This document shows positions 13,703-34,774 of a DNA stretch of 38,332 bases, in pieces. Source of the stretch: an uncultured Selenomonadales bacterium (lineage in GTDB: Bacteria > Bacillota > Negativicutes > Selenomonadales > Selenomonadaceae); the NCBI GenBank assembly GCA_947165295.1, contig CAMUZU010000020.1, forward strand, positions 1 to 38,332. The letters run 5' to 3'. The position numbers and the translations under genes were made by a program. Below the pieces are notes generated by a model. That model was given only the letters and a program-made list of their open reading frames with translations, did not search any database and was not told where the DNA came from. The number at the start of each line of letters is the position of its first letter. Position 1 is the stretch's first letter.

Positions 13703-14144
13703 AAAATCCGCGCTCATGAAGGCGGCCGACTTACTGGCTTACCGCGAACACAGCGAGTCCGAACTCAAGCAGAAACTTTTGGCGCGACATTACGAACCCG
13801 CCGAAGTTGACGCGACGATTGACAAGCTCAAGCAACACAATTACCTTGACGACGCGGAACTTTGTCGGCAACAATTCGACGACCTTTGGACGGACGGACG
13901 GCTCAGCGTGCGACAAATTGTCGTCAAGTTGATTCGGCGCGGCTTCGACAAAAACTTTATTGACGAACTCATTCCCGCCGACCGCGACGAACACGAATTG
14001 CAAGCGGCGACATTGGCATTGACGAAGAAGTTCACGACCCGCGACGAAAACTTTCGCGCCAAAGCGTGGCAATTTCTTTCGGGACGCGGCTTCGACGGCG
14101 ACATCATCTCGACTGCGATTGAAAACTTTTCGGCGACAAGTTGA
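13692..14144 (+). CDS. recX: RecA regulator RecX with an altered C-terminus
   Basis: RecX binds RecA filaments and modulates their activity; it is commonly encoded right after recA. The 150 residues contain the usual three-helix repeats: [20 protein letters not shown], then [20 protein letters not shown] and the third repeat [20 protein letters not shown]. The ATG at 13692 overlaps the end of recA, implying translational coupling, though no strong ribosome binding site is present; ATG 13716 is an alternative. The end has been changed by a 163-base tandem duplication: the gene now ends IENFSATS, whereas the second copy ends IENFSEGG next to the following gene's ribosome binding site, so EGG was probably the original ending. 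Confidence 0.92.
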
Positions 14145-14296
14145 CCGCGACGAACACGAATTGCAAGCGGCGACATTGGCATTGACGAAGAAGTTCACGA
14201 CCCGCGACGAAAACTTTCGCGCCAAAGCGTGGCAATTTCTTTCGGGACGCGGCTTTGACGGCGACATCATTTCGACTGCGATTGAAAACTTTTCGG
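13980..14296 (+). repeat. Tandem duplication of the recX 3' end
   Basis: 13980-14133 and 14143-14296 are 154-base copies differing at two positions, separated by nine bases (CGACAAGTT). The period of 163 is not a multiple of three, so the second copy is out of frame with recX and untranslated as RecX. It carries no palindromic element, unlike the duplicated tails of folP and trmD. Confidence 0.95.
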
Positions 14297-17064: not shown

Positions 17065-18480
17065 ATGAGTTTTTTTGACGACGATTCCGCTAACGAAGTT
17101 CCTGCGAACGAAGAACAACCCGTTGTCGAAGATGTCGACGCCGAAAATCCGTCGGAAACGGGCGATTGGCTTTGTTCATGCGGACAAGAAAACGTCGGCG
17201 ATTTTTGCGTCTCTTGCGGAAAGCCCAAACCGTCTGCCGAAAGTCCGTCGACAACGGGCGGTTGGCTTTGTTCATGCGGACAAGAAAACGTCGGCGATTT
17301 TTGCGTCTCCTGCGGAAAGCCCAAACCGTCTGCCGAAAATCCGTCGACAACGGGCGGTTGGCTTTGTTCGTGCGGACAAGAAAACGTCGGCGATTTTTGC
17401 GTCTCTTGCGGAAAGCCCAAACCGTCTGCCGAAAGTCCGTCGCAAAATTCCAACGTCGACGATTTTAACAATCGACCTCAACGCGCCTCATCACGAGTAT
17501 CACAGGAAACATTTCGACAGGAGGAACCGCCTCAACCGCCGCCGCCTCAACCAACGCCACCGCCTCAACCAACGCCACCACATCAACCAACGTCCGAAAA
17601 TGCGCCTTCAAACAGTCCGAACAAAGCTTTAATTGCCGGCGCGATTGCGGGTGTGCTTTTGTTGGCGGGCGGAGGTTTTTTCGCGTTTCAACATTTCAAG
17701 GCGGGCGACGCGCCCAACGACAATTTCGATTTGAACGACAACAAACCCGCCGTCACCGAAACGACCAACGAAAACAATTTGTCGGACAACACGACCGTTA
17801 TCGGGAATTATTACGTCGTGAATTGTCAAACGTCCGTCACGTTGCGGCGCACGCCTTCGACGACTTCAGTTGAGTTGGCGCAGGTTCCGCTCGGTCAAAC
17901 GGTCGGCTTTATCGAAGAGAGCAACGCCGAATTCAGCAAAGTCAACTACAACGGGACAATCGGCTACATCTTGACGCAATATCTTTCCGCACAACCGCCG
18001 GCACAAAATCAGCCGCCTGCACAAAATCCGCCCGCGTCCAACAACGCCGAATCGTTGAGTTTGGGCGGTCTGCGCATGGGTGACACGGTTGACAAGATGC
18101 ATCAGGTTTTGGGACGCGAAGACAGAGTTACCCCGTCGAAAACCGCTTCGAACAGCACGAATTGCGAATATCGCGACATTGTCGTCACCGTCAAAAGCAA
18201 CGAAATAACCGGTCTGGTTTCTTATTCGCCCGCCGTCAAAACCGAACGCAACCTGCACGAAGGCTCGTCGCTAAACGAAGTCATTGCGGCTTACGGTCGG
18301 CGTTGTGCGGTTCAAGATTACGACGGAGCACGGCTTTACGAATATCCCTACGAATCGTCGCGGGGGCTTGTCGTCATGCGTTTTGCGATTAAAAATAACG
18401 TCGTCGACTATATCAGCTTGCGTATCGTGACCGACGGCACCGAGAGGCAAAAAATTCTTTCCATGGTGAAGACCATTTGA
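17065..18480 (+). CDS. Triple zinc-ribbon, SH3b membrane protein sharing the kinase sensor domain
   Basis: 471 residues. After an acidic start come three almost identical 32-residue zinc ribbons (WLCSCGQENVGDFCVSCGKP), then a Pro/Gln-rich linker (PPPPQPTPPPQPTPP), one membrane segment (about 189-209), an SH3b-like domain (about 248-309, YYVVNCQTSVTLRRTPS to GYILTQYL), a second Pro/Gln linker, and a C-terminal domain (about 329-470) matching that of the kinase at 15162. Orientation is inferred as zinc ribbons inside and the SH3b and shared domain outside. SH3b domains often bind peptidoglycan. The frame opens at GTG 17056 but GGAAGG favours ATG 17065. First gene of a cluster with two further zinc-ribbon proteins and a lipoprotein. 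Confidence 0.85.
   Translation: MSFFDDDSANEVPANEEQPVVEDVDAENPSETGDWLCSCGQENVGDFCVSCGKPKPSAESPSTTGGWLCSCGQENVGDFCVSCGKPKPSAENPSTTGGWLCSCGQENVGDFCVSCGKPKPSAESPSQNSNVDDFNNRPQRASSRVSQETFRQEEPPQPPPPQPTPPPQPTPPHQPTSENAPSNSPNKALIAGAIAGVLLLAGGGFFAFQHFKAGDAPNDNFDLNDNKPAVTETTNENNLSDNTTVIGNYYVVNCQTSVTLRRTPSTTSVELAQVPLGQTVGFIEESNAEFSKVNYNGTIGYILTQYLSAQPPAQNQPPAQNPPASNNAESLSLGGLRMGDTVDKMHQVLGREDRVTPSKTASNSTNCEYRDIVVTVKSNEITGLVSYSPAVKTERNLHEGSSLNEVIAAYGRRCAVQDYDGARLYEYPYESSRGLVVMRFAIKNNVVDYISLRIVTDGTERQKILSMVKTI
17166..17442 (+). repeat. Three 96-bp tandem repeats encoding zinc ribbons
   Basis: Units begin at 17166, 17262 and 17358. They differ by only a few silent or near-silent changes, so the expansion is recent and the copy number may vary between strains. 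The period is in frame (32 residues). Confidence 0.95.
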
Positions 18481-29950: not shown

Positions 29951-30620
29951 TATCATCACGCTGTTTCCCGAAATGTTCGCGGGCGTCTTCGGCGAAAGCA
30001 TAATCAAGCGCGCCGTCGACAAAAACATTTTGAACGTTCGCTTCACGCAACTTCGCGATTTCGCCTTCGACAAACATCATCACGTTGACGATTCGCCTTT
30101 CGGCGGCGGCGCGGGCATGGTGCTCAAACCCGAACCGGTTTATCGTGCCGTGCGCGACGTGCTGAGCCGCTCCGACGAAAATATTTCGCGCAAAATAATT
30201 CTGCCTGACCCCAGCGGCGAAGTTTTCACGCAAGCAAAGGCCAAAGAACTTGCCGCGCTCGATCAGATTGTTTTCGTGTGCGGACATTACGAAGGCTTCG
30301 ACGCGAGAATTTACGACCTTGCCGACGAACTTATTTCAATCGGCGATTACGTGTTGACGGGCGGCGAACTTCCCGCAATGGTTATCGTCGACGCCGTGGC
30401 GCGCATGTTGCCCGACGTTTTGGGCTCGGCGGAGTCTGCTGAAACTGATTCGTTCTTCGACGGACGACTCGGCTTCCCGCAATACACCAGGCCGCGAGAC
30501 TTCGAGGGCAAACTCGTCCCCGAAGTTTTGTTGTCGGGCAACCACGCCGAAATAAAAAAGTGGCGCGACGAACAATCACTTGCTTTGACGCGCACACGAC
30601 GACCCGACTTGCTGACATGA
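29940..30620 (+). CDS. trmD: tRNA (guanine-37-N1) methyltransferase TrmD
   Basis: 226 residues. TrmD methylates G37 next to the anticodon and prevents frameshifting. It starts QIDIITLFPEMFAGVFGESI; the S-adenosylmethionine-binding trefoil knot is seen in VCGHYEGFDARI and ISIGDYVLTGGELPAMVIVD, and the C-terminal helical part ends in ALTRTRRPDLLT. ATG 29940 overlaps the end of rimM; the ribosome binding site is weak, fitting coupling. Its last 57 bases plus ten beyond the stop are repeated three more times downstream (30564-31062); the duplicates are not attached to any start and leave the working gene intact. Confidence 0.96.
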   Translation: MQIDIITLFPEMFAGVFGESIIKRAVDKNILNVRFTQLRDFAFDKHHHVDDSPFGGGAGMVLKPEPVYRAVRDVLSRSDENISRKIILPDPSGEVFTQAKAKELAALDQIVFVCGHYEGFDARIYDLADELISIGDYVLTGGELPAMVIVDAVARMLPDVLGSAESAETDSFFDGRLGFPQYTRPRDFEGKLVPEVLLSGNHAEIKKWRDEQSLALTRTRRPDLLT

Positions 30621-30630
30621 GTTGCGAAAA

Positions 30631-30707
30631 TTTTCAGTTCGCGGCGAACACGTTTGAACGTCGAAAACGTCACGTCGCGAAAATTGTTCCGCCGCTTTTA
30701 AAGCGGC
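30631..30707 (+). mobile_element. Palindrome-ended small element, trmD copy 1
   Basis: 77 bases, starting TTTTCAGTTCGCGG and ending with arms GCCGCTTT and AAAGCGGC around one T, preceded by TTGTTCC. It carries the same blocks, in the same order, as the minus strand of 34656-34729 (AGTTCGCGG, GAACGT, ACGTCGCGA, TTGTTCCGCC). It is flanked on both sides by the trmD tail. Confidence 0.85.
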
Positions 30708-30774
30708 CGCGACGAACAATCGCTTGCTTTGACGCGCACACGACGACCCGACTTGCTGATATGAGTTACGAAAA

Positions 30775-30851
30775 TTTTCAGTTCGCGGCGAACACGTTTG
30801 AACGTCGAAAACGTCACGTCGCGAAAATTGTTCCGCCGCTTTTAAAGCGGC
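30775..30851 (+). mobile_element. Palindrome-ended small element, trmD copy 2
   Basis: Identical to 30631-30707, amplified together with the trmD tail as part of the 144-base unit. Confidence 0.85.
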
Positions 30852-30918
30852 CGCGACGAACAATCGCTTGCTTTGACGCGCACACGACGACCCGACTTGC
30901 TGATATGAGTTACGAAAA

Positions 30919-30995
30919 TTTTCAGTTCGCGGCGAACACGTTTGAACGTCGAAAACGTCACGTCGCGAAAATTGTTCCGCCGCTTTTAAAGCGGC
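30919..30995 (+). mobile_element. Palindrome-ended small element, trmD copy 3
   Basis: Identical to 30631-30707. It is followed by the last tail copy, after which unique sequence begins at 31063. Confidence 0.85.
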
Positions 30996-31082
30996 CGCGA
31001 CGAACAATCGCTTGCTTTGACGCGCACACGACGACCCGACTTGCTGATATGAGTTACGAAAACGCCAATCGAAGCGAACACA

Positions 31083-31194
31083 CGGCCGCACAGGACGTGC
31101 GGCCGCCCGGCGTACGACGCGTGATGCGTCGTCCGTCGGGTCAAAGTGCTTTTCTTTTGGTTACTTTTCTTTGGCGCCGTCAAAGAAAAGTAAC
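31083..31194 (+). repeat. Three-hairpin intergenic element, copy A
   Basis: Hairpin 1: CGGCCGCAC/GTGCGGCCG with loop AGGAC (31083-31105). Hairpin 2: ACGACGC/GCGTCGT with loop GTGAT (31114-31132), enclosed by CCCG/CGGG. Hairpin 3: GTTACTTTTCTTTG/CAAAGAAAAGTAAC with a 7-base loop (31160-31194). Copy B at 36134-36238 has the same order and the same third hairpin. It ends 12 bases before the next ATG. Confidence 0.85.
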
Positions 31195-31206
31195 GTTCAA
31201 CTTGCC

Positions 31207-32226
31207 ATGAACACGAAAACAATTTTGCTGATAATCGGCGTGCTGTTGATTTTGACGGGCATCGTCGGGCTGGGAACTTTTTACGCGTACAAGCAAATCA
31301 AGTCCGTGCCCGCCAATCCCGTTCGTAGTGCAAGAAACGCCGTCGACAAACACGACATAAACGAGTTCCGAAAATTCGTCGACATGGACGCGCTGATTGA
31401 CGAGGCAGCCAAAGAAATTTTGACCGCGCAGATTAACGCGACGCTTGACCCGACGGCTTACTCAATGGACGAAGTCAATCGCCGCTACGAAAATCAAAAG
31501 GCAGACTTCGTGTCAAGTGCACGCGCCGCCGCCGAAGAATTCATTTCGACGGGCAAGGTGACTTTTCCGCAGGAGTTGACCGCCGCGCAAAAGTTCCTGA
31601 AGAAGTCCGGCGTTGACTCCTGCGAAATTCGCTCCGTCACAAAGCCGCGCTCCGAAGGCGACGTTCAAACCGCGACCGTCACGCTGTACAATCATTACAT
31701 GAAGTTCAGCTTCGAGCTGGAACTTGAACTTTCGCACGCGGACGAAAATCTTTTGCGCGTCACGGCTGCCAAAGGTTTCGACGGCTATTGGGCGGGCTAT
31801 CAACGTTCGCTCAAACGCAAACTCGATTCGCTCAACGCGCCAATCGGCAGGCAGATGGACGAGATTTTTAACGTCAAAGATTTCTCCGTCAAGAACGCGG
31901 GCGGCGACGAGTACGGCTTTTCGCAGAACCTGAACATCGCCATTAAAGCGGACGTGCGCTCGAAGGAACGCCTGTCGAAAATCGTCGGCAACATCATCGT
32001 CGGCAAGGACGAAACCGAAAGTTATTCGCCGTTCGTAATCGACATGTACCAGAAGCCGCAGGGTCTGCAAACGTTCACCGTGACGAAAGTTTTAAATCCG
32101 TTCGTGCGCGCCGACTCCAACGCAATGAAACACGGTTTGCGCAAAAGCGAAATTCACATCGAGGTTACGGAAATAATCTTCGCGGACGGCTCGAAGCTCA
32201 AACTACTTGACGAGTTGCCCGAATAA
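31207..32226 (+). CDS. Membrane-anchored protein of unknown function (DUF2939-like)
   Basis: 339 residues with one N-terminal membrane helix (ILLIIGVLLILTGIVGLGTF, about 5-25), then a soluble, probably extracytoplasmic domain. The start of that domain (NPVRSARNAVDKHDINEFRK, followed by FVDMDALIDEA) resembles DUF2939-type proteins, a loose match from memory. The ATG at 31207 has no visible ribosome binding site: the sequence immediately upstream is the third hairpin of element copy A, which may have replaced the native leader. It is followed 15 bases later by the fusion gene at 32242, suggesting a two-gene unit. No catalytic motif seen. Confidence 0.75.
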   Translation: MNTKTILLIIGVLLILTGIVGLGTFYAYKQIKSVPANPVRSARNAVDKHDINEFRKFVDMDALIDEAAKEILTAQINATLDPTAYSMDEVNRRYENQKADFVSSARAAAEEFISTGKVTFPQELTAAQKFLKKSGVDSCEIRSVTKPRSEGDVQTATVTLYNHYMKFSFELELELSHADENLLRVTAAKGFDGYWAGYQRSLKRKLDSLNAPIGRQMDEIFNVKDFSVKNAGGDEYGFSQNLNIAIKADVRSKERLSKIVGNIIVGKDETESYSPFVIDMYQKPQGLQTFTVTKVLNPFVRADSNAMKHGLRKSEIHIEVTEIIFADGSKLKLLDELPE

Positions 32227-32241
32227 TTTGGAGGTGTCACG

Positions 32242-34650
32242 TTGGAAAAAATTAACGTCGTGCTTGTCCTGCTCAACGCGAACAAACTGCGCGAAGCTCT
32301 GAGTTCGCTCAACTTCAATCGCGCAAACCTTGTCGCAGTCGTCGTCGAAGGCGGCAACGGAAATTTCTTGACCGTCGACAAACGTCGCGTCCCGCTGATT
32401 TCTTTCGCGTCGATTGGTCAACTGTTGAACGCGGGAAAAAATTTCGTTTGGCTGCTCAACGGTCACGTGAACGACGCGGGCGACCTGTGGAGCATGAAAA
32501 AATTTTTGACGGCAAACGGCGTCCCCGAAGACAACATTGTCAACTTTGAACGCTGGCTTACCGCCGAGTGGTTCGCGAATCTGCGTTACGTCGAAAGACA
32601 CGGCGCGGATTTTTTTGCGACGGGCATAAGTTACGCCGAAGTCGGGCTGGACTTGAATTTTATTCCGCACGTGCGCGGACGCGGCGTCAACTTGTCCGGC
32701 TCGAATCAGGACTTGCGGCAGGGTTACTTGACCGCCAAACACATCTTTGAACGCGTCAAGCCCGGCACGATTAAGTTTGTGCTGATTGGACTTGCGCCGT
32801 ATTCGTTCCGCTACGACAACGCCAAAGCTTTCGCCGTCACGTCGCGACATCTGCAGTACATGATTGCACTTGACGCGCCCGCCCGCAACCGCCACGACGA
32901 ATTGTTGACGGCTTTGACGAGCGACGACGTTAAAAAATATTTCGCGACGTTGACCGCCGAACAAGCCGATTTGAACTTCAGCCGCACGAAAAAAAATCTC
33001 AGCCGCGAACTGCCCGTTAAAGCCGTCGTCAACTGGGAGGCGGAGTTGCGCAACTTGACGAAGAAACTTTATCCCGTGACCGTCGAAGAAAATTTCCGCA
33101 TCCTCAAAGCGTACATCAAACTTTGCCGCGACAACGGAGCCAAGCCCGTCGGCGTTGTTCTGCCGTTCGCGCCCGCAATGCACGACAATTACAGCGCGGA
33201 ACTGTTGACGCTCTTTCGGCTTGCGATTCGCGAACTTGAAGAGACGACGGACTTCACCTGCGTTGACCTGTTCGACTTGCGGCTCGGCTACGATTGCTTT
33301 TACAACATGGCGCATTTAAATCTGCGCGGCGCGGCGATTGCAAGTTCACTGTTGGGCGCGAAGTTGCACGAACAAAAACTTTTGCCGACGGAAAATTTCT
33401 GCGGCATGAATTACGAATACTTCAACCTGCTGTCGAACCTGTTGCCCCGCGACGAATACAACGCGCTGATGAATCAAGTTTTCGACAAGTCGGTTGAACC
33501 GCTTCGCCGCAAGGACAAGCTTAAAATCGGCTTCGTGCTGTATGATTCGTCAATGTGGTGCGGCGACGAACTGTATGACTTGTTCGCCCGCGACGAACGA
33601 TTCGAGCCGACGATTTTCCTTTGTCTGCGCACGGACAAAACTCAAGACGAACTTGTCCGCAAAGATTTTGCACACGGCGCGGAGCAGTTCAAGTCACACG
33701 GGCGAAACGTCGTCGCGCTTGTCGAAAAGAATTCGCCCGTCGAGCCGCAGGACGTGCTGATTTATTTGACGCCGTATCTGAACGTGTTGCCCGACGCGTT
33801 CCAACCGTCGAAGTTGACGGCGCGAACACTTGTCGCTTATATCCCGTACGCCTTCAACGCGACGACTTACGAAATTTCGGATTACGCGATCTTTCACACG
33901 GCGTGGAAAGTTTTCTTCGAGTCGAACTTTTCGCTCAAACTCTTCGACGCGCACAGCAAGCTTGGAATGCCTCGCGGACTGCTGAGCGGTTATCCGAAGT
34001 TGGACGCGCTGCTTGACGGGCGGACGGATTTTCACTTCAACTGGAAGACGACACGTCCCGACGCGAAGAAAATCATTTACGCGCCGCATTGGTCGATTAA
34101 CAAAGGCGTCAAGTACTCAACGTTTCACCTCAACGGCAAGTTCATGTACGAGTTTGCACGCAGTCACCCCGAAACGAGCTGGGTCGTCAAGCCGCATCCG
34201 AATTTGCTTTACTCCGCGGTCAAGTCGGGTCTGTTCAAGTCGGCGGCGGACTTTGAAGCTTACCTGCAAGCTTGGAATGAACTTCCGAACGCGCAGGTTG
34301 TCACGGGCGGATATTATCTGGACATCTTCGCCACGAGCGACGGGCTGATTCACGACGGCGGGTCGTTTATCGCCGAATATCAGTTCACGCACAAGCCGTC
34401 AATCTTTTTGACCCGCGACACGCAAAAGTTCAACGAGCTTGGCCGAAAGATTTTGGACGCGTCGTATTTGGTCGACGGTTCCGACACGCAAGCCATTGCC
34501 GAGCTGATAAAAAAAGTTTTCGTCGACGGCGAAGACTTCAAGCGCGACGAGCGACGGAAAGTTTTCGACGAGCTGTTGAATTGGCGGCGCGTCAACGGCA
34601 CGTCGGCAAGCGAATTCATCTTCCGCAACATTGTCGACGCTCTGCAATAA
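32242..34650 (+). CDS. SGNH-like domain fused to a TagB/TagF-type glycerophosphotransferase-like domain
   Basis: 802 residues in two parts. Residues 1 to about 385 look like an SGNH-type hydrolase or acyltransferase of the DltD kind: NLSGSNQDLRQGYLTAKHIF near 150, FVLIGLAPYSFRYD, and a candidate catalytic Asp-His pair in DCFYNMAHLNLRGAA (about 350 and 358). Residues about 425-802 resemble the GT-B fold of CDP-glycerol glycerophosphotransferases: GYPKLDALL, IIYAPHWS (about 613), VVKPHPN (about 651) and SDGLIHDGGSFIAEYQ (about 699). This suggests synthesis or decoration of a surface polymer (inference). TTG start with GGAGGTG nine bases upstream. No other polymer genes are adjacent. The gene ends at a small element insertion. 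Confidence 0.75.
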   Translation: MEKINVVLVLLNANKLREALSSLNFNRANLVAVVVEGGNGNFLTVDKRRVPLISFASIGQLLNAGKNFVWLLNGHVNDAGDLWSMKKFLTANGVPEDNIVNFERWLTAEWFANLRYVERHGADFFATGISYAEVGLDLNFIPHVRGRGVNLSGSNQDLRQGYLTAKHIFERVKPGTIKFVLIGLAPYSFRYDNAKAFAVTSRHLQYMIALDAPARNRHDELLTALTSDDVKKYFATLTAEQADLNFSRTKKNLSRELPVKAVVNWEAELRNLTKKLYPVTVEENFRILKAYIKLCRDNGAKPVGVVLPFAPAMHDNYSAELLTLFRLAIRELEETTDFTCVDLFDLRLGYDCFYNMAHLNLRGAAIASSLLGAKLHEQKLLPTENFCGMNYEYFNLLSNLLPRDEYNALMNQVFDKSVEPLRRKDKLKIGFVLYDSSMWCGDELYDLFARDERFEPTIFLCLRTDKTQDELVRKDFAHGAEQFKSHGRNVVALVEKNSPVEPQDVLIYLTPYLNVLPDAFQPSKLTARTLVAYIPYAFNATTYEISDYAIFHTAWKVFFESNFSLKLFDAHSKLGMPRGLLSGYPKLDALLDGRTDFHFNWKTTRPDAKKIIYAPHWSINKGVKYSTFHLNGKFMYEFARSHPETSWVVKPHPNLLYSAVKSGLFKSAADFEAYLQAWNELPNAQVVTGGYYLDIFATSDGLIHDGGSFIAEYQFTHKPSIFLTRDTQKFNELGRKILDASYLVDGSDTQAIAELIKKVFVDGEDFKRDERRKVFDELLNWRRVNGTSASEFIFRNIVDALQ

Positions 34651-34742
34651 AAAAAGCCACTTTGAAAGTGGCGGAACAACTGTCGCGACGTGTCGTTACC
34701 AACGTTCCAACGGTATCACCGCGAACTAATGCAATAAAAAAA
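34643..34742. repeat. 13-bp direct repeat flanking the small element
   Basis: TGCAATAAAAAAA occurs at 34643-34655, spanning the stop codon of the preceding gene, and again at 34730-34742, abutting the terminator. Removing the element and one copy joins stop codon and terminator directly, which is the expected uninterrupted structure. Confidence 0.85.
34656..34729 (-). mobile_element. Palindrome-ended small element inserted after a stop codon
   Basis: 74 bases. Read on the minus strand it begins TTAGTTCGCGGTGATACCG and ends with arms GCCACTTT and AAAGTGGC around one C, preceded by TTGTTCC. Relative to the trmD copies, G/C pairs in the palindrome are replaced by A/T pairs on both arms, so pairing is kept. 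Its orientation relative to the host gene is opposite to that at folP and trmD. No coding capacity. Confidence 0.85.
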
Positions 34743-34774
34743 TCCCCGTTCACAAGAGCGGGGAAATTTTTTTT
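34736..34774. terminator. Bidirectional terminator
   Basis: CCCCG (34744-34748) and CGGGG (34759-34763) with an A tract before and eight T after. It serves the plus-strand fusion gene and the convergent GltD-like gene. Confidence 0.88.

Follow-up and report, generated by a model that had tools for sequence, protein, structure and literature searches.

Bacterial elements that are moved by a classical transposase make short target duplications of near-constant length. In MITEs, for example, the target duplication has one short, near-fixed length which is set by the transposase. IS91/ISCR elements and Helitrons are built differently, with a single well-defined end, which carries a hairpin, and a second end whose limits are loose, and we know of no target duplication made by them. 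For SINEs and LINEs, the published model as outlined in PMC2881922 combines a constant 3′ end, a first nick specified by the endonuclease, a target duplication made by a displaced second nick, and frequent 5′ truncation. Here we describe a family of small palindrome-ended repeats in a rumen bacterial genus that has drawn study because it may be connected with low methane emission (PMC9585023). We think it probable, though by no means certain, that this is a non-autonomous mobile element family, which spreads by copying, is anchored at one end, and inserts by nick priming via an RNA or single-stranded DNA intermediate.

The first member was noticed in a stretch of 38,332 nucleotides (hereafter the window), which is one entire contig from an uncultured Selenomonadales bacterium (genome G000; assembly of 2.49 Mb in 110 contigs, judged 80% complete). 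An element of 74 bp occupies positions 34656-34729 of the forward strand, leading with its hairpin end, a 17-bp terminal palindrome GCCACTTTGAAAGTGGC (34656-34672, forward strand) of the type called H1 below. As the preliminary description had reported, it is flanked exactly by two copies of the 13-bp string TGCAATAAAAAAA, at 34643-34655 and 34730-34742 of the same strand. The element had also been placed between a stop codon and its terminator. A terminator-like hairpin with a T run, read by eye, does follow at 34743-34774 (no strand assigned) between two convergent genes, but the upstream 802-codon frame already ends within the first repeat, which contains its TAA stop codon. By eye, a similar terminator-like hairpin is found beside the orthologous downstream gene in G016, a relative of the same genus, and in several others, and the H1 hairpin is not near it there.

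Exact 13-mers repeated 60-200 bp apart occurred 0.34 times on average and three times at most in 50 dinucleotide shuffles of the window, while the real window contains 637 of them in 97 runs, mostly from one coding repeat at 17140-17442. Thus, a 13-bp repeat alone is weak evidence, and it is the family that carries the case. The coding repeat itself consists of 96-bp tandem repeats encoding double-cysteine (zinc-ribbon-like) modules within a 474-residue frame. The H1 end pattern with up to three mismatches was found eight times in the window against 0.04 expected, three of the eight being the trmD palindromes described below, read on the opposite strand. At the gathering score, the single Rfam match of the window is a tRNA elsewhere, and no other match comes close to its gathering score, so that an Rfam RNA identity was rejected. 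A coding element was also rejected by reading, since the frames left open by some copies are interrupted in others by stops at the same positions, and the variation has no codon rhythm.

The same element had been noted at trmD, and its palindromic end at folP. Both are correct, and there is more at each place. At trmD, three element copies form a tandem array of 144-bp units, in which copies on the reverse strand (30631-30707, 30775-30851, and 30919-30995) alternate with three copies of a 67-bp duplication of the trmD 3′ end on the forward strand (30564-30630, 30708-30774, and 30852-30918). The trmD stop codon is contained in the first repeat and is present in each of the others. The 144-bp unit is a multiple of three, and open frames of 48-residue repeats are found at 30560-31210, which an annotator could take for a repeat protein. 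At folP there is a full insertion on the forward strand: a 73-bp element (32-104) with the palindrome CCCGCTTTAAAAGCGGG at 32-48 lies between a first duplication copy of at least 31 bp (1-31, where the contig begins inside the repeat) and a second 31-bp copy at the folP 3′ end (105-135). The window contig (C20, at 1-135) and one end of contig C19 (L053) both terminate in this same folP element and repeat; thus, the contigs were probably broken within an array of tandemly repeated element and flank. A different palindromic repeat that is also dispersed, GGTTACTTTCTTT...AAAGAAAGTAACC, frequently accompanied by two more hairpins, was observed at window positions 31120-31203 and at L102:9613-9775. 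It is absent from G016 at both places, and by a left-flank rule 11 of the 76 distinct element copies of G000 lie inside a composite of it.

Further copies were searched for in the whole genome. BLAST with the element gave 19 matches in G000, the element itself included, and the next five show 76-84% identity over 68-74 of its 74 bases. The hairpin-end pattern CCRCTTTNAAAGYGGNNGAAC has 64 exact matches in G000 and, with up to three mismatches, 161 against 89 for a backward control. A covariance model made from 13 copies of the relative G010 found 94 (E up to 0.01; 107 candidates scored). The observation is thereby confirmed as real and the element belongs to a dispersed family; the tens of further copies that the preliminary description had asked for exist, and its interpretation as a mobile element is supported overall, most of the tests that it proposed having been passed. 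The exact pattern CNCTTTNAAAGNGNNGGAAC matched 15 of 60 genomes, all of the same genus (G000 and 14 of its 36 relatives), and none of the 23 genomes outside the genus; its backward control gave no match. The four genomes richest by this pattern are G010 (129 copies), G000 (79), G016 (23), and G023 (17), and 22 of the 36 relatives have zero. With the covariance model, 21 of the 37 genus genomes have matches, led by G010 with at least 107 (a floor, as 107 candidates were scored per genome), and G023 and G035 have 83 and 40, respectively. G003, G006, G013, and G022 are among the genomes free of the element. Among the matches listed, the same end occurs in Quinella sp. 1Q7 and 2Q5 and in uncultured rumen Selenomonadaceae and Selenomonadales, so that the window most likely comes from a rumen bacterium akin to Quinella. 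In a scan of assembled contigs, at least nine loci from other taxa (one labelled Oscillibacter, from goat) were removed before counting; one of nine pattern sites there is a perfect palindrome among the matches listed, and some chance matches are expected from the length of the pattern. A scan of viral contigs with the pattern gave six candidate stretches.

Copies of the family have one end that is always a palindrome and another that is variable. From the palindromic end inward, the order is the H1 palindrome, usually GGAAC, and then a tail. Tails in G000 often finish near CCGCGAACT, and many in G010 extend to a second hairpin followed by CTAG, for about 105 bp in total; tail sequence varies strongly among copies, and the element is usually about 50-120 bp between the repeats. 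Arm variants of H1 with paired changes include GCCGC, GCCAC, CCCGC, GTCGC, GACGC, and CACGC against their complements. Such paired changes had been taken as a sign that structure is selected. In 20 distinct palindrome forms, a hand-picked set with related rows and with mismatched forms included, 11 cells changed on both sides versus 3.5 when shuffled, and the covariation score was reached by none of 500 shuffles. The claim stands in these measures, but not in the number of pairs with a both-sided change, which is three, a value reached by 166 of the 500 shuffles. The palindrome is not fixed in sequence either: two unrelated palindromes, GGTTACTTTTAAAAAGTAACC (H2) and GCAACGTGACGTTGC (H3), lead similar tails, and anchored duplications, as defined below, are present at three of three H2 sites and seven of 22 H3 sites with a tail. 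Since three unrelated palindromes are found on the same tails, the family is defined by its tail, and the palindrome at the end can be exchanged. At L354 and L110 of G010, copies are nested, with a palindrome and a short tail piece placed immediately ahead of another palindrome with the same tail piece, and it looks as though the tail of the new copy had paired with the resident one.

For each copy, the sequence up to the palindrome was compared with the sequence past the element. Among 76 distinct copies in G000 (84, with closely overlapping ones merged), 43 have a repeat within three bases of the palindrome, and in 40 of the 43 it ends exactly there. In an unanchored version of the test, 49 of the 76 score above the 95th percentile for mismatched pairs. 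Copies from relatives, taken as an independent set, gave 47 anchored duplications in 88, 42 of them exact, versus none in 86 mismatched pairs. By a second method, the copies with anchored duplications in G000, G016, and G010 number 43 of 77, 14 of 21, and 18 of 42, respectively; three of its matches, at distances of 1.3-4.3 kb, are only 11-13 bp long and probably due to chance. Thus, most duplication-bearing copies are bounded exactly by their palindromic end, and the other end is variable. The duplicated stretch is 11 to about 160 bp of target. Several duplications are perfect across 23-31 bp and are therefore probably recent, and longer perfect ones are found in tandem arrays. The 13 bp noted at the first insertion is at the short end of this range and not a property of the family, and a fixed 13-bp duplication was rejected. 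No anchored duplication was detectable in 33 of the 76 copies of G000 and in 41 of the 88 in relatives; age, target deletion, or composite copies could explain these. An ordinary MITE moved by the DDE transposase of some insertion sequence would also be small, apparently non-coding, present in many copies, and flanked by target duplications. However, the palindrome is at one end only, with no inverted repeats at the two ends, the second end is variable, and the duplications have no fixed length, and we regard this origin as very improbable.

The cut lies at a preferred site. In 71 of 82 copies with a duplication (11 in tandem arrays or near a locus end were removed), the last duplicated base (-1) is a purine in all 71, C is at -2 in 47, and positions +5 and +6 carry T in 41 and 39 of them, respectively. 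The preferred insertion site is GGCG^NNNNNTT, and it is on the GGCG side of the cut that the target is duplicated. Counted from the cut, the TTT of the H1 palindrome falls in register with the target T's. H3 has no TTT in that register, and its seven anchored copies also follow a purine.

Sites before insertion can be seen in G016, the closest relative seen, with about 73-90% identity in aligned stretches. The H1 hairpin is absent from the G016 stretches searched at all seven comparable G000 insertion sites. Four of these, trmD, C1:47838, C21:23563, and C1:41353, are clean empty sites with a single flank copy and no element. The other three loci, namely the first insertion, C21:18936, and C21:15526, are rearranged in G016, and at C21:15526 an H3 palindrome occupies the place where H1 is missing. 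For the pair C1:55843/56109, G016 aligns on one side only. The empty sites that the preliminary description expected in relatives are therefore found at four places, but not at its own locus, because other genes lie between the upstream gene and the terminator in G016. The trmD site is also empty in G020 and G021. In G010, the same trmD site bears what seems to be a separate insertion: the hairpin is a different one, and the trmD 3′ end has been duplicated anew, starting at the same GTGGCGCG. Reciprocally, an element copy is present in G016 where G000 has none.

Could such loci have arisen with no transposition enzyme at all? Hairpins and repeats might provoke template switching in replication, which would leave local tandem duplications with element-derived filler. 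Indeed, G000 has tandem duplications without the hairpin: one of 154 bp with a 9-nt filler at the recX 3′ end (window 13980-14296), and one of 131 bp with a 12-nt filler near a gene end at L103:916-1189, where G016 is single-copy. Long duplications thus arise without the element too, and the enzyme-free route keeps some weight because these two gene-end tandem duplications have short fillers alone. The nested copies whose tails share homology also fit it. On the other hand, a precise hairpin boundary with a strong target preference, copies dispersed over many contigs, and empty sites without a trace of an earlier element speak against template switching, and we consider it improbable for the family.

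The preliminary description had found all of its copies at gene 3′ ends. In 42 copies of G000, the cut is within a called gene in 30 and in no called gene in 12, the calls being those of a simple home-made caller, trained on 12 window frames and uncurated. In 22 of the 30 in-gene cuts, an end of the gene that was cut is inside the duplicated stretch, but these are 14 3′ ends and eight starts, so that confinement to 3′ ends was rejected. For the remaining in-gene cuts, the called frame extends into the element in six and runs further in two. When the gene end is within the duplication, the interrupted gene is made whole again by the second copy of the repeat, which shows how insertions can escape selection. 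Selection for harmless insertions would explain the gene-end positions, and targeting of stop codons is then unnecessary.

A one-end-anchored, nick-primed insertion would proceed as follows. An enzyme may nick one target strand after GGCG. The intermediate, either RNA or a single-stranded DNA that begins 5′ with the hairpin, would have its hairpin end joined to, or copied from, the freed 3′-OH. The other strand would then be broken, or the tail end would re-prime, at a non-specific point 11-160 nt away, and fill-in would duplicate the stretch between the nick and the second break. In-gene insertions would persist if the end of the gene is included in the duplication, so that selection would leave gene-end copies, and tandem arrays could then form through recombination between the duplicated flanks.

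This pathway needs a helper, and none of the element copies examined encodes one. The preliminary description had suggested looking for a transposase, reverse transcriptase, or relaxase gene bounded by the same ends; none was found in the loci examined. Flanking repeats were also searched to the locus ends for an autonomous, gene-bearing copy, with no convincing candidate; the three matches of 11-13 bp mentioned above are probably fortuitous. By profile search of the 37 genus genomes, RVT_1 is absent from G000, G010, G016, G023, G014, and G020 and present in 11, including the element-bearing G035 and G017. Y1_Tnp (PF01797) is absent from G000, G010, G016, G023, and G035; any match was seen in five of the 37 genomes, and that in the element-bearing G014 is a 27-position fragment. 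Y2_Tnp exceeded the cut-off in none of the 37, and 14 control genomes gave none either. RVT_1, Y1_Tnp, and Y2_Tnp were therefore rejected as the helper, since none of the four genomes with the most exact-pattern copies has them. The completeness of these four is 80-89%, so each negative is weaker by itself, but it is less likely that chance losses would coincide in several rich genomes.

Two more specific forms of the nick-primed reading differ in the intermediate. One is target-primed reverse transcription of a small structured RNA, analogous to a SINE, in which the hairpin would be the RNA 3′ end, the nick at GGCG^ would prime cDNA synthesis, the second nick would be non-specific, and the RNA 5′ end would be variably truncated. 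Its geometry matches the published model as far as PMC2881922 sets it out. Folding of 13 G010 copies favours the sense in which the hairpin is 3′ (-25.7 versus -17.5 kcal/mol), and in this sense they have 17 G-U versus four A-C cells; on the model-fitted alignment, which leans that way, the counts are 118 versus 52, an asymmetry confounded by relatedness and model fitting. However, RVT_1 is lacking in the six genomes named above, and H1 is almost wholly Watson-Crick (948 of 968 non-gap cells of the model-fitted alignment, with nine G-U), as a DNA palindrome might be. We regard this form as unlikely when taken alone. The other is a one-ended, rolling-circle-like transposition of single-strand DNA by an HUH-type nickase, in which the 5′ hairpin end would be joined to the target 3′-OH and the loose tail would re-prime on upstream target to yield the duplication. 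One fixed and one variable end, the fixed one being a palindrome, suit this route, and the shared register of H1 and the target T's is what is expected if one nickase cuts both donor and target. Against it, H3 lacks TTT in register and yet has duplications, Y1_Tnp is missing from the five genomes listed, Y2_Tnp gave nothing over the cut-off (nor did it in the controls), and larger duplications are not known for IS200/IS605 in the account of PMC2817692. We regard this form, too, as unlikely when taken alone.

As to earlier reports, transposition, palindromes, mobile elements, and hairpins go unmentioned in the Quinella genome paper (PMC9585023), whose main text was searched by terms. By titles and the beginnings of abstracts, no earlier description fitting such elements was found in the open-access papers searched. 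Among the known systems, IS91/ISCR elements and Helitrons are similar in the hairpin-defined end and the loose other end, but to our knowledge they lack the target duplication, and no Y2_Tnp match exceeds the cut-off in any of the 37 genus genomes. MITEs differ in having terminal inverted repeats at both ends, instead of one palindromic end and a variable other end, and a near-fixed short duplication instead of 11-160 bp. They resemble the family in being small and dispersed, with direct repeats that fade with age, as described for prokaryotes (PMC10969869). REP/REPIN sequences with RAYT (Y1) are likewise high-copy hairpin palindromes with complementary changes and a helper in trans (PMC2817692), and compensatory changes are seen here in the 20 distinct hand-picked forms. 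Nevertheless, according to the same source, IS200/IS605 members make no larger target duplications, and Y1_Tnp is missing from all four of the genomes that are richest in exact-pattern copies. SINEs and LINEs differ in that the present host is bacterial, that the four genomes richest by the exact pattern have no RVT_1, that there is no poly-A tail, and that the duplications are as long as about 160 bp. Should the hairpin be the 3′ end, however, the likeness to the model in PMC2881922 extends to the constant 3′ end, the variable 5′ end, the specific first nick, and the variable duplication, and a constant end, a variable end, and a variable duplication starting at the cut are all observed here. 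One may tentatively imagine a bacterial counterpart of SINEs, a small, folded nucleic acid with a hairpin terminus that an unrecognised enzyme would copy into nicked DNA, with duplications of up to about 160 bp, and whose hairpin could be exchanged for unrelated palindromes because the enzyme would read structure and not sequence; we would not call this likely, and the RNA route, if true, would be categorically new for bacteria as far as we know. The insertion process seeds tandem arrays and gene-end copies and thereby reshapes gene ends in this rumen genus. Taken together, the anchoring at one hairpin end, the preferred nick, and the long, variable duplications (11 to about 160 bp) point to a mechanism unlike those of the bacterial transposons known to us.
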